Source: Bacteroidaceae bacterium (GTDB lineage: Bacteria > Bacteroidota > Bacteroidia > Bacteroidales > Bacteroidaceae). From it: DNA of 64,000 nt. The DNA lies in NCBI GenBank assembly GCA_017548075.1, contig JAFYNL010000022.1, positions 1 through 64,000 of the forward strand, written 5' to 3'. Below the pieces are notes generated by a model. It worked only from the letters and a program-made list of their open reading frames with translations. It did not search any database and had not been told where the DNA came from. Both the position numbers and the translations under genes were made by a program. Shown here in pieces: positions 12,116-63,755 of this stretch; within the stretch, counting starts at the first letter, position 1; each line of letters opens with the position of its first letter.

Positions 12116-12197
12116 CAAAAGCGGCAAAACTTTCAGCTTTTTTTGCATTTTTCGAAACGGCCTTTCTCCAAACCATGTGTGGAGCATTTTCAAACGA

Positions 12198-12308
12198 CTG
12201 CAGTTACGTTGGCAAACTTAACGTGTTACGTTTGCGATTTTAACGTGTTACGTTGACCAACTTAACGTGTTATGTTTGCAAACTACACTTGACGAGTTGA
12301 CAAACTAT
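12198..12308 (-). repeat. 22-bp dyad tandem repeat array R1 (reverse orientation)
   Basis: Three clear units and degenerate edges. Each carries TTAACGTGTT(A) with a 20-22 bp period, separated by CAAAC or CCAAC-like bases. In the orientation used for the other arrays the unit core reads TTAAC-AC-GTTAA. It lies between two divergent promoters. Same family as the arrays at 24556, 30935, 38058, 49389 and 63668. Confidence 0.85.
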
Positions 12309-22930: not shown

Positions 22931-24444
22931 AGATAATGGATACTACGCTGCGCGATGGTGAGCAGACCAGCGGCGTAAGTTTCATGCCTCACGAGAAGCT
23001 GATGATTGCTCGTGCCTTGCTGCAAGACCTCAATGTGGACCGCATCGAGGTGGCGAGCGCGCGTGTCTCCGAAGGCGAGAAAGAAGCCGTGGCGAGCATC
23101 ATGCGATGGGCGAATCAGGCAGGCAAGACCGATAGGGTAGAGGTGCTTGGTTTCGTGGATGGAACGAAGAGTGTGGATTGGATTGCCGAGAGCGGTTGCG
23201 GGCGTATGAACCTGCTCTGCAAAGGCAGTCGCAAGCACCTGGAAGGCCAACTCCATAAGTCCGTCGAGGAGCATCTTGCCGACATTCAATCTACGATTGA
23301 CTATGCTCAGCAGAAGGGCATCAAGGTGAATGTCTATCTCGAGGACTGGAGCAACGGCATAAAGGAGAGTTCCGACTATGTCTTTACTTTGATGGACGGG
23401 CTCTCGAAGATGCCTGTAGAACGCTTCATGTTGCCCGATACGCTTGGCATTCTCAATCCCATCGAAGTGTCGCAGTTCATCGGAGAGATGATTGAGCGCT
23501 ATCCCGACAAGCGTTTCGACTTCCATGCTCATAACGATTACGACCTCGCGATAAGCAATGTTCTGGCGGCAGTTACGGCTGGTTGTCAAGGTATCCACAC
23601 GAGCGTCAACGGCTTGGGCGAACGGGCTGGTAATGCGCCTCTTGCAAGCGTGCAGGCCGTGCTGAAGGACCATCTTCATGTCTCCACGCATATTGATGAG
23701 AGTCGTCTTGGCGAGGTCTCCCGACTTGTGGAGAGTTATAGCGGCATCGCCATTCCGCCAAACAAACCCATCACGGGCGAGAGTGTTTTCACGCAAGTTG
23801 CTGGCGTTCATGCAGATGGCGACAATAAGGCTGGACTCTATCAGAATGCTCTCCTGCCCGAGCGGTTCGGCCGTAAGCGTGAGTATGCGCTTGGTAAGAA
23901 CTCGGGCAAAGCCAACATCTTGAAGAACCTCGAGGAGCTGGGACTCGAACTCTCTCCTGAGCAGACCAAACGCGTGACTGAGCGTATCATCGAGTTGGGC
24001 GACAAGAAGGAGTTGGTGACTCAGGAAGACCTTCCTTACATCGTGAGTGACGTCCTCAAGCATGGCGCTCCTGAAGAGCATGTGAAGCTGCTTTCCTATG
24101 TCGTAACGACGGCTTACGGACTGAAGCCTCTTGCGAGTGTTCGCCTCGAAGTGAACGGTCAGACCTACGAGGAGAGTGCGAAGGGCGATGGTCAGTTCGA
24201 TGCCTTTGTGCGAGCCATTCGTCACATCTACAAGAACCGCCTTGGACGCGAGTTCCCGTGGTTGACCAACTATACCGTCAGCATTCCGCCTGGAGGCCGC
24301 ACCGATGCCCTTGTGCAGACCGTCATCACTTGGAACTGGAACGACCGCATCCTTCGTACTCGCGGTCTTGATGCCGACCAGACCGAAGCCGCCATCAAGA
24401 GTACTATCAAGATGCTCAACCTCCTCGAAGACGAGAACCTTTAG
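22909..24444 (+). CDS. Second LeuA-type synthase, possibly (R)-citramalate synthase
   Basis: 511 residues. It begins with [14 protein letters not shown], and has FHAHNDYDLA (metal ligands) and TSVNGLGERAGN, so it is a DRE-TIM acyltransferase. A C-terminal LeuA dimer/regulatory domain (about residues 380-510, LLSYVVTTAYGLKPLASVRL) is present. It is clearly different from the LeuA at 19431, sharing motifs but little else. Candidates are citramalate synthase (pyruvate plus acetyl-CoA, entry to isoleucine without threonine deaminase) or a second isopropylmalate synthase. Location with leuCD and leuB, which can process citramalate, favours the former; sequence alone does not settle it. The TAG stop lies inside the first unit of a tandem repeat. 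Confidence 0.8.
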   Translation: MGKDRTIEIMDTTLRDGEQTSGVSFMPHEKLMIARALLQDLNVDRIEVASARVSEGEKEAVASIMRWANQAGKTDRVEVLGFVDGTKSVDWIAESGCGRMNLLCKGSRKHLEGQLHKSVEEHLADIQSTIDYAQQKGIKVNVYLEDWSNGIKESSDYVFTLMDGLSKMPVERFMLPDTLGILNPIEVSQFIGEMIERYPDKRFDFHAHNDYDLAISNVLAAVTAGCQGIHTSVNGLGERAGNAPLASVQAVLKDHLHVSTHIDESRLGEVSRLVESYSGIAIPPNKPITGESVFTQVAGVHADGDNKAGLYQNALLPERFGRKREYALGKNSGKANILKNLEELGLELSPEQTKRVTERIIELGDKKELVTQEDLPYIVSDVLKHGAPEEHVKLLSYVVTTAYGLKPLASVRLEVNGQTYEESAKGDGQFDAFVRAIRHIYKNRLGREFPWLTNYTVSIPPGGRTDALVQTVITWNWNDRILRTRGLDADQTEAAIKSTIKMLNLLEDENL

Positions 24445-24527
24445 GTCGACGCAAGTCAGCCTTTAGGTCGACGCAAGTCAACCATTTAGTTTGACGTTAG
24501 TCAACCTTTAGGTAGACGCTAGTCAAC
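24439..24527. repeat. 22-bp tandem repeat with TTGAC/GTCAA dyad, four units
   Basis: Units start with TTTAGG or TTTAGT at 24440, 24462, 24485 and 24507 (spacing 22, 23, 22). Each contains GACGCAAGTC or a close variant. The third is a clean dyad, TTGAC-GTTA-GTCAA. The first unit contains the TAG stop codon of the preceding gene. The period and dyad plan match the TTAAC/GTTAA arrays, but the arms differ. Confidence 0.85.
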
Positions 24528-24614: not shown

Positions 24615-24725
24615 TGCCTGTATTTCAATAAGTCAAATTTTCATTTTTGGATAAGGATGCGCCGCTGCGTGTCCTTATGTATATGTTGTATGCCGCGTCC
24701 GGCATTGTGCTTTCGAATCACAGCA

Positions 24726-24793
24726 CAAAGGTACGGCAATTTTTTTGCGCCGCCAAATTTCACCCCTTCAATTGGGCCGATTTTCAGCACCAA
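24726..24793 (-). promoter_or_regulatory. Conserved promoter cassette, copy 1 (leftward)
   Basis: On the minus strand TTTG (24757-24754) and TACCTTTG (24733-24726) are 20 bp apart. About 40 bp further upstream also resembles the plus-strand copy at 63562-63630, including GCTGAAAATCGGC, AATTGA and AAATTTGGC(G/A)GCGCA. Downstream on the minus strand, short inverted repeats (ATGCC/GGCAT at 24690-24705 and AAGGA/TCCTT at 24653-24676) could fold in a transcript. No protein frame follows. May drive a small RNA. Confidence 0.6.
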
Positions 24794-24849
24794 TTTGAGC
24801 GATTTTTGCAACGCATTGATTTCCAGCACGATTTACTCCGATTCTGGAC

Positions 24850-25013
24850 TTTCCACAGATTCCACAAAGTTCACAAGTGGAAAATGAGACACACGCTGTT
24901 CGCTATCTTTATTAATTAATCATTACATGTTTTAATTATAATATATATAATATAGTGCTCGCACTTCTCTCAAAACTTGTTGTGGAATTTGTGGAATCTG
25001 TGGATTTGTGGAA
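24850..25013. repeat. Hairpin repeat element A with inverted 9-bp-period flanks
   Basis: Left flank 24850-24880 has tandem TTCCACAGA/TTCCACAAA units. Core 24904-24975 is AT-rich, contains TTACAT between inverted arms, and ends TCTCTCAAAA-like (TTCTCTCAAAA). Right flank 24977-25013 is the left flank inverted, with TTTGTGGAATCTGTGG matching CCACAGATTCCACAAA exactly. Core is shared with elements B and C. Confidence 0.8.
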
Positions 25014-25021
25014 AATTTCCC

Positions 25022-25181
25022 TTTCCACAATTTCCACAAAGTTCACAAGTGGAAAATAAGACATGTCGTTTTCACTATTATTTATATTATTACGAATTAC
25101 ATTCGTTAATTATAATAAATATTATATAGTCGTCGCATCTCTCTCAAAATTAGTTGTGGAGTTTGTGGAATTTGTGGAAAA
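25022..25181. repeat. Hairpin repeat element B with inverted flanks
   Basis: Second tandem copy, about 170 bp after element A. Left flank 25022-25053 (TTTCCACAATTTCCACAAAG), core 25074-25150, right flank 25151-25181 (GTTGTGGAGTTTGTGGAA). The core folds into a long imperfect hairpin whose tip is ACGAA-TTACA-TTCGT, followed by TATAGTCGTCGC and TCTCTCAAAA. The leuB -33 region lies in the right flank. Confidence 0.8.
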
Positions 25182-30906: not shown

Positions 30907-30934
30907 AATTTTTCCAACAACCCCAGTTTCGATT

Positions 30935-31003
30935 GCAAACATAACACGTTAAGTTCGCCAACTTAACACGTTAACTTTGCCAACGTAACACGTTAACTTT
31001 GCC
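30935..31003 (+). repeat. 22-bp dyad tandem repeat array R3
   Basis: Three units of exactly 22 bp: 30935-30956, 30957-30978, 30979-31000, then GCC of a fourth. Each has the core TAACACGTTAA, preceded by GCAAAC or GCCAAC and followed by CTTT or GTTC. It begins 28 bp after the stop of the lipoprotein gene, in the direction of transcription. The rest of the 288-bp gap holds a short GC-rich repeat (about 31003-31034) and a promoter. Confidence 0.9.
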
Positions 31004-38057: not shown

Positions 38058-38170
38058 CAAAACATCACGTGGATAAATCGCAAACATCACACGTGAAGTT
38101 TGCAAACTTAACACGTGAACTTTGCCAACATCACACGTTAACTTTGTAATCGTAACACGTTAAGTTTGCC
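38058..38170 (+). repeat. 22-bp dyad tandem repeat array R4
   Basis: Four exact 22-bp units at 38080, 38102, 38124 and 38146, plus a degraded unit before them. Their cores mix arm types: ATCACACGTGAA, TTAACACGTGAA, ATCACACGTTAA and GTAACACGTTAA. This is the array where both arm variants coexist. Confidence 0.9.
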
Positions 38171-49328: not shown

Positions 49329-49388
49329 CAGGCTCGTCTATACACAAGTGTAAATGTGGGGCGATAAAAAGGACTCCACGTTATAATG

Positions 49389-49452
49389 CTCAACGTAACA
49401 CGTTAAGTTCGCTAACGTAACACGTTATGTTGAGCATCTTAACATGTGTACT
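49389..49452 (+). repeat. 22-bp dyad tandem repeat array R5
   Basis: Two full 22-bp units (49389-49410, 49411-49432) with cores GTAACACGTTAA and GTAACACGTTAT, then a degraded unit with CTTAACATGTGTAC. It lies between two convergent genes. Confidence 0.85.
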
Positions 49453-49463
49453 TTTACTTGAGG

Positions 49464-63205: not shown

Positions 63206-63258
63206 TACTTCAGCAAAACCTTATTGCTCTGCCATGAGATTGAGGACGGCCCCTTGCC
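63206..63258 (-). pseudogene. Fossil 3' end of a T9SS-secreted protein gene
   Basis: A minus-strand frame ending at TAA 63208-63206 reads ...GPSSISWQSNKVLLK, like the sorting tails of the two intact T9SS proteins that end KKILVE and KKTLVK in this window. It is followed by the terminator at 63178-63136, and its upstream part is lost where the TTAAGCA-type flank begins. The call rests on about 15 residues, so it is tentative. Confidence 0.35.
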
Positions 63259-63260
63259 TC

Positions 63261-63516
63261 TTTTTTAAGCATGCTTATTTTGCTTAAATGCTTAAGTGTT
63301 GAAAATCTGTATGTTACCTATACAACGACATCTACCATTCTGCTTAGCTACGAAAATTTTAAGCAAATAAGCAAATTAAACATTGATTTTTGAGAGAAAG
63401 GCGGCGACTATATATTATTTATTATAATTAACTCATATGTAATAGGTAATATAATAAATATAAGGGAAGCCCTTTGTCTCTTTTTAAGCAAAGTTTAACT
63501 TGCTTAATTGCTTAAC
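63261..63516. repeat. Hairpin repeat element C with TTAAGCAA-type flanks
   Basis: Outer left flank 63261-63296 and right flank 63481-63516 are direct repeats rich in GCTTAA. An inner left flank 63358-63381 (TTAAGCAA, ATAAGCAA, period 8) is inverted relative to the right flank. The core 63390-63465 is the reverse complement of the leu-locus cores: TTTTGAGAGAAAGGCGGCGACTATATA, arms TATTTATTATA/TATAATAAATA, loop ATGTAA. Confidence 0.8.
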
Positions 63517-63561
63517 GCCCTGCCAGCCTACAATTCAAACCATTTGCCGAGAATCATATCA

Positions 63562-63630
63562 ATTGCTGCTGAAAATCGGCTGAATTGAGGTGCTGAAATT
63601 TGGCAGCGCAGCCAGAATGTCGTACCTTTG
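63562..63630 (+). promoter_or_regulatory. Conserved promoter cassette, copy 2 (rightward)
   Basis: TTTGG at 63599-63603 and TACCTTTG at 63623-63630, 20 bp apart, embedded in 69 bp similar to the minus-strand copy at 24793-24726. A small hairpin AGAACT/AGTTCT (63647-63665) and then array R6 follow. No coding frame begins here. Confidence 0.6.
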
Positions 63631-63667
63631 CAATGTGAAAGAAAAGAGAACTACTGCAGAGTTCTTT

Positions 63668-63755
63668 GCAAACTTCACCTGTGAAAATGGCCAACTTCAC
63701 ACGTGACGTTTCGCAACTTCACGAGAGATCTTTGACAACTTCACGAGAGAGAAAA
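63668..63755 (+). repeat. 22-bp dyad tandem repeat array R6
   Basis: Four exact 22-bp units at 63668, 63690, 63712 and 63734. The cores are TTCACCTGTGAA, TTCACACGTGAC, TTCACGAGAGAT and TTCACGAGAGAG, preceded by CAA or CCAA. Arms TTCAC/GTGAA replace TTAAC/GTTAA of the other arrays. Confidence 0.9.

Follow-up and report, generated by a model that had tools for sequence, protein, structure and literature searches.

The 64,000-nucleotide stretch analyzed here (contig JAFYNL010000022.1 of a Bacteroidaceae bacterium, assembly GCA_017548075.1; below referred to as the window) carries three copies of an odd repeat element, two of them in front of leuB on the plus strand (24851-25014 and 25023-25180) and one on the minus strand (63358-63516). 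All three had been named in a preliminary description of the window and could be read directly, and they align over their full length, including arms and core. The core has a length of 93-96 nt, starts with A/GAGACA or AAGACA, contains TTACAT and TTAATTATAATA and ends with TATAG..CGC and TCTCTCAAAA, its AT content being 73-77% compared to 52% for the whole window. It is framed by two arms consisting of a few repeats of a word of approximately 7 nt, which are separated by spacers of 2-3 nt and inverted across the core, and the inverted repeats flanking the AT-rich core measure 8-9 bp. With a probability of roughly 0.7, and judged from sequence, we regard these elements as replication origins of the type iteron, AT-rich region, iteron that are specific for the Rep (primase-helicase) of integrated satellite-like cassettes, the window copies being orphans of such origins.

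The cores were compared using R1, a profile derived from five cores of the same genome including the three window copies, which with its six weak base pairs is in effect a sequence profile; the scores given for the window cores are therefore those of copies present in the build. Copy 1 is composed of a left arm with TTCCACA-type repeats and an inverted GTGGAA (24851..24882), a class 1 core (24883..24975, AT content 0.73, 98.7 bits) and a right arm with inverted repeats (TGTGGAA, 24976..25014). The same type of left arm is found in copy 2 (25023..25054), followed by a class 1 core (25055..25149, 107.3 bits) and a right arm of inverted repeats (25150..25180). Between 25150 and 25225 this right arm continues into TATCTTTGCAG, which we take to be promoter-like and which precedes leuB, so that with the insertion of copy 2 leuB may have been given its own promoter. 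In copy 3, read on the minus strand, the left arm with TTAAGCA-type repeats (63484..63516), the class 1 core (63388..63483, 98 bits) and the right arm with inverted TTAAGCA repeats (63358..63387) can be distinguished. A detector written for an AT-rich centre between inverted, repeated words found exactly these three copies and nothing else in the 64 kb; it gave no match in 312 kb of first-order Markov sequence modelled on 20 loci, and in real DNA it also picks up some plain repeats.

The core is also present elsewhere. R1 identified 14 copies in the own genome at E<=1, the five build copies among them, and 81 matches in 12 of 139 genomes of the genus at E<=0.01 (own genome included) with up to 18 per genome, and one further own-genome copy on contig C45 was missed by it. 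Among 301 genomes of the family from 30 genera, searched with strict filters, two genomes matched and both belong to the same genus; the exact 23-base pattern of the TTCCACA arm was found on three contigs of the GTDB genomes. At least three core classes exist, class 2 possessing TCTATTATTATATAATAATAGA-like palindromes. No paper on this element came up in searches of open-licence PMC articles, which cover no preprints. Other repeat families of Bacteroidales are a minisatellite-bearing miniature inverted-repeat transposable element (MITE) of Porphyromonas gingivalis (PMC4596501) and PINSR of Prevotella intermedia, a 188-bp intergenic repeat which is stated to lack terminal inverted repeats (PMC4755523) and which was compared by description only.

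The preliminary description had also claimed that the left flank of a copy predicts its right flank. As R1 spans the core only, the flanks played no part in the search, and from 82 core matches (the 81 genus matches and the copy on C17 of the own genome) we could use 76 with 60 bp on both sides. Own left and right flanks reached a score of 19.5 compared to 10.0 for other pairings, and the own partner was the best or tied in only 22 of the 76 copies, as a word is often common to many of them. When each left-flank cluster was represented by a single copy (19 clusters, not all of them separate words as they include one pair interrupted by an insertion sequence (IS), one tandem pair and two clusters with CCGAACA) the scores were 19.0 and 8.9 and the own partner was best or tied in 16 of 19, with p = 1e-4, the floor of 10,000 permutations, none of which reached the observed value. 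The flanks thus do match within a copy and not between clusters. A weak match (score <14) was observed for six of the 76 copies. Two of them have a left arm with an IS-like end, three are tandem or half copies and one is a hybrid (L021, G053:C147:46417-46511), which with TTCCACA in its left and CGTACA in its right arm looks like the product of a recombination between two elements at the core. In L026 and L034, which belong to different genomes, the same IS-like end (...TTTCAGTATAAGACA) breaks the left side of class 1 elements.

The flanks had further been described as unrelated between loci. This needs correction, since 14 of the 15 tabulated words share the form NNNACA, TTAAGCA being the exception (the TGACA, AAAGCAAA and TAAAACAA types were left out of the table), and a word is the marker of a subfamily rather than of a locus, with TTCCACA being present at several sites. 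Conservation drops outside the word, six word positions being constant by construction. Left and right arms are identical at 983 of 991 positions inside the words (0.99) and at 733 of 934 outside (0.78), an excess that is partly due to construction as words were chosen for being repeated.

In nearly all copies with both flanks the arms are complementary over approximately 20 nt and could form a long stem, as would be expected for a structured RNA or a terminator. Pairing alone leaves the repetition of words inside the arms unexplained, and it does not account for a match that is stronger within words than in the spacers, with the reservation just made. Together with the differences in the arms between copies and the result of RNAalifold on the core (six weak pairs and no two-sided change, with five sequences only) this makes the regulatory RNA that had been considered less likely, and we give a stem of this kind very little credit. 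The core by itself was also tried as a structured RNA and rejected on the RNAalifold result. Rfam gave only four sub-threshold matches in four loci, of which MIR6140 (24.7 bits, cut-off 140) overlaps copy 1 and was taken as a chance match.

In related genomes the same architecture is found inside mobile cassettes, just 3' of a gene encoding a small helix-turn-helix (HTH) protein. Six of the first 40 loci have their left arm shortly after the stop codon of this gene, whose product of 59-70 aa ends with YGIDx and shows a marginal likeness to DUF4248 (Pfam, E 0.099). The HTH gene has 92 matches in 38 of the 139 genus genomes; 67 loci were read; for 61 of them 300 bp of downstream sequence were available, in which the detector gave a match at 22 loci. 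This count is conservative, as the detector misses L047 although it is a core match and more elements are present by eye. Besides the HTH gene these cassettes carry genes for HU and for Rep, a BT4734-like/DUF3987 primase-helicase, and some of them hold defence genes as well. The own genome has such a cassette on C45 (L102) with the order primase-helicase, 107-aa protein, DUF3127-like protein (below cut-off), HU, HTH, element with GCGCAACA words and two proteins with GGINVQ/GGINIQ motifs. Its Rep has 763 aa and matches DUF3987 with 26.6 bits (cut-off 27) and PriCT_1 below cut-off, and the DUF3127-like protein is presumably similar to a single-stranded DNA-binding protein. BT4734-like_N is above cut-off in the Rep of L048, a locus in which the genes for HU-HIG and for an endolysin-like protein (phrog_873) are oriented divergently to the HTH gene. 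When 45 HTH loci were clustered, a recurring gene set emerged, yet most loci hold only a part of it. The cargo of L159 includes a type IIG restriction enzyme and also an S24 peptidase, that of L148 a Fic-type defence candidate. A cassette protein at L147 9559-10515 has PADLOC matches to RTasMBL (E 7e-13) and LmuA (E 1e-8). With the Rep of L102 as query no match was obtained in plasmid records, in IMG/VR by patterns of close relatives or in the PDB by sequence, and phage records gave two weak matches (25.7-27% identity). In L154, L162, L171, L172 and L175 the contig ends in or near the AT-rich palindromic core, which is likely due to assembly breaks, physical hairpin ends being possible.

An element that is multicopy (14 in the own genome), intergenic and in some subfamilies present at several sites might also be a MITE-like non-autonomous transposon, with ends recognised by different transposases. 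In a MITE family, however, one would expect the opposite of a common core with arms differing between clusters, and there are no family-wide terminal inverted repeats. In addition, no integrase or transposase model was found among the Pfam matches of 26 proteins from cassettes with undefined ends, except for weak HTH-type matches of the small HTH protein including excisionase models. An ordinary MITE, as one kind of the non-autonomous mobile elements considered in the preliminary description, is therefore less likely, and we regard this explanation as very improbable.

The words appear to follow the C-terminal part of Rep. In nine loci the Rep C-termini split according to core class, and among 14 class 1 Reps, compared over 546 columns, variability peaks in an 11-residue window (2.19 compared to a mean of 0.59 bits) that is a putative turn and recognition helix, assigned as such by sequence pattern. 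In L234 and L235, two contigs of one genome, the Reps are identical in the printed stretch before the helix and different within it. We collected 23 pairs of Rep and element by eye and seven more (six from a later set and L252), of which 29 with the helicase were used; L254 and L262 (Rep frame cut) and L268 (plain repeat) were dropped. Distances between words correlate with those between helices (r=0.558, p=2e-4, the floor of 5,000 permutations) and still do so when helicase distance is partialled out (r=0.314, p=2e-4, same floor), whereas helicase against word given the helix is not significant (0.037, p=0.24). Within helicase clusters r is 0.51 (47 comparisons, p=0.006). Examples of the association are L147/L151 (GGTTACA), L140/L155 (GCGTAAC) and L304/L306 (GCTACA) compared to L308/L252 (GTTGCA). 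The preliminary description had suggested that the core is conserved and its recognition-like ends can be exchanged, and that the elements could be left over from a larger one with end repeats of its own. This is supported, as the structure is found inside cassettes and its words track their Rep.

The adjacent HTH protein, used as a control, showed no association with the word (r=-0.048, p=0.66, n=14), and it was rejected as reader of the words, with L051 and L052 having near-identical HTH proteins and different words. The arms might nevertheless be operator arrays bound by Rep or another cassette protein for the control of transcription, the element being a regulatory switch. In line with this, the element has the HTH gene on one side and the downstream operon on the other, and several right arms are followed by a TAnnTTTG-like sequence, presumably the -7 box of Bacteroidetes. 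The words, however, are not tracked by the adjacent HTH, the association is with the C-terminal domain of a helicase, and a palindromic, AT-rich core is not generally required for an operator, which makes a switch rather unlikely.

An origin, in contrast, would resemble those of phage-inducible chromosomal islands (PICI), described as always having two iteron sets on either side of an AT-rich region (PMC6092414), and of Staphylococcus aureus pathogenicity islands (SaPI), for which the cited account has the origin read by the C-terminal domain of Rep (PMC7581432). DUF3987 is described as a predicted helicase, and for another primase family a C-terminal winged helix has been proposed to read the origin (PMC5862659). 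In the elements described here an AT-rich region likewise lies between two iteron sets, a primase with a helicase-type Rep is present by sequence match (BT4734-like_N, with DUF3987 below cut-off) and a statistical association suggests that its C-terminal domain may read the origin. Differences are the words being inverted across the core, the BT4734-like/DUF3987 type of Rep and the orphan copies spread over the chromosome, and no integrase was found among the proteins scanned. In the phage-inducible chromosomal island-like element (PLE) of Vibrio cholerae, RepA and an iteron origin are reported as cognate, exchangeable modules (PMC8263062); its Rep is unrelated (RepA_N, PMC7145576) and its iterons are approximately 30 bp long.

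Several points weigh against an origin read by Rep. The origin of PICI is directly 3' of rep, whereas here the element lies 5' of Rep, beside the HTH gene, as seen in nine loci with HTH, element and Rep, and several elements are 5-7 kb away from Rep. For class 1 alone the correlation of helix and word is not significant (n=7, r=0.34, p=0.063). The remainder of the C-terminal domain correlates equally well (r=0.587; partial given the helix 0.272, p=2e-4), and therefore the evidence points to the domain and not to the helix alone. Pairs and arms were picked by eye, the detector giving nothing or another repeat for L140, L149, L151 and L155, and the pairs are not independent as some are close relatives (L244/L245). 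A detector match 5' of Rep was obtained in 25 of 70 loci, scanned on the 5' side only and many of them cut by contig ends, with some matches being plain repeats (e.g. L268 and the first match of L140), and in 7 of 20 further loci (19 outside the genus), L303 being apparently a plain repeat. Thus many Reps are without a recognised element. The element probably works like a PICI-type origin. We do not place it among the PICI themselves, for which an origin 3' of rep, an integrase with attachment site, and induction and packaging by a helper phage are characteristic.

Different elements can occupy the same chromosomal site. Among 30 leuB loci (leuB and pgm were named from the Pfam matches Iso_dh and PGM_PMM) five gave a detector match, namely the own genome (TTCCACA, two copies), G057 and G016 (GTACAA), G087 and G091, and in several other species no more than some 20 bp separate leuB from the gene before it. 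Of 30 pgm loci, two end too near pgm to judge and five gave a match, each with different words: TAAGCA (own genome), ATTACA (G084), GGAACA and TCACAA (G093), AGCGTA with a class 2 core (G053) and AAAGCA (G057). G027 has an apparent right half of an ATTACA-type copy at pgm, G053 by eye seems to have kept a TGACA right arm beside its class 2 element, and the downstream flanks in G084, G093, G053 and G027 are by eye nearly identical. For the 63.4-kb site, of 30 ortholog loci only the own genome and G040 with a different element gave a match. These observations would fit with elements being replaced in place as well as with several insertions at one preferred site. The elements of G087 and G091 at leuB have another core, a common downstream flank and ATTTCA and ATATCA, respectively, in both arms, as might result from neutral homogenisation by slippage and template switching at inverted repeats without any reader. 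Such a process predicts neither the association of Rep and word nor the shared NNNACA form, and we consider it extremely unlikely.

The preliminary description had stated that no protein gene accompanies the elements in the window. This holds for the cassette proteins tried, as Rep, HTH, HU and DUF3127-like queries gave no match there (tblastn, 1e-3), whereas near fuller copies the family of HTH, HU and primase-helicase genes was found. When twelve other loci of the own genome were searched with these four queries, C45 (L102) matched all four, C60 (L047) HTH and C27 (L062) HU. The HU gene on C27 lies approximately 0.36-0.81 kb upstream of a TTCCACA copy in cassette-like orientation and is 76% like the cassette HU. 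As the window has no match to any of the four, C45 has all of them and C27 has HU by a TTCCACA element, orphan origins are the best interpretation of the copies in the window. In G075 the word TAAAACA is found both in a Rep-bearing cassette (L148) and on C103, where no Rep match is listed.

Additional features are present near the window copies. At 63251..63296 on the minus strand another TTAAGCA copy seems, by eye, to be represented by its left arm and the very beginning of its core (AAAGAGGCA), the remainder being missing. A module 5' of the left arm at 24718..24795 (plus strand) has a second instance 5' of copy 3 (63561..63638, minus strand; 79% identity over 78 nt) and was also seen by eye before copies on C15, C27 and C36. 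It shows reversed promoter-like GTACCTTTGCA and CCAAATTTCA..., and its end GCATTGATTTTCAG may be the decayed 3' end of an HTH gene. Tandem 22-bp repeats similar to AACTTAACACGTTAAGTTTGCC are located at 12193-12302, 30916-31003, 38061-38170, 49370-49457 and 63649-63736, some of them adjoining elements, and a tandem repeat of a different 22-bp word at 24436-24527.

For the origins we infer the following mechanism of binding, melting, replication and decay. The cassette primase-helicase, comprising a BT4734-like part and the DUF3987 helicase, would bind the iterons via its C-terminal winged-helix-like domain, melt the AT-rich core and start replication. Iterons and Rep domain would change together, so that each cassette replicates its own kind, and the cassette that brought the window copies would have decayed, leaving no Rep alongside. 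Selection for origin change by an origin-directed phage nuclease, as suggested by the authors of the PLE work (PMC8263062), is a possible driver here. Rather speculatively, class 1 words might represent a recognition code of the form NNNACA, with a hypervariable helix of the satellite Rep reading the triplet. Orphan origins might be retained at favoured positions in front of leuB and pgm, where one origin would be exchanged for another by an incoming cassette; they might be used for landing, or they might titrate Rep as decoys and either fire together with a cognate cassette or give protection from it.

With these results an odd repeat family becomes a likely cognate Rep-origin system in Bacteroidales. 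Some thirty natural pairs of Rep and word are available, from which the initiator specificity of satellites could be derived by sequence and tested directly. The elements also mark sites where mobile cassettes, some with defence genes such as the type IIG restriction enzyme and the Fic-type candidate, came and went, and the foreign orphan origins that host chromosomes retain might serve the hosts or rival cassettes as decoys.
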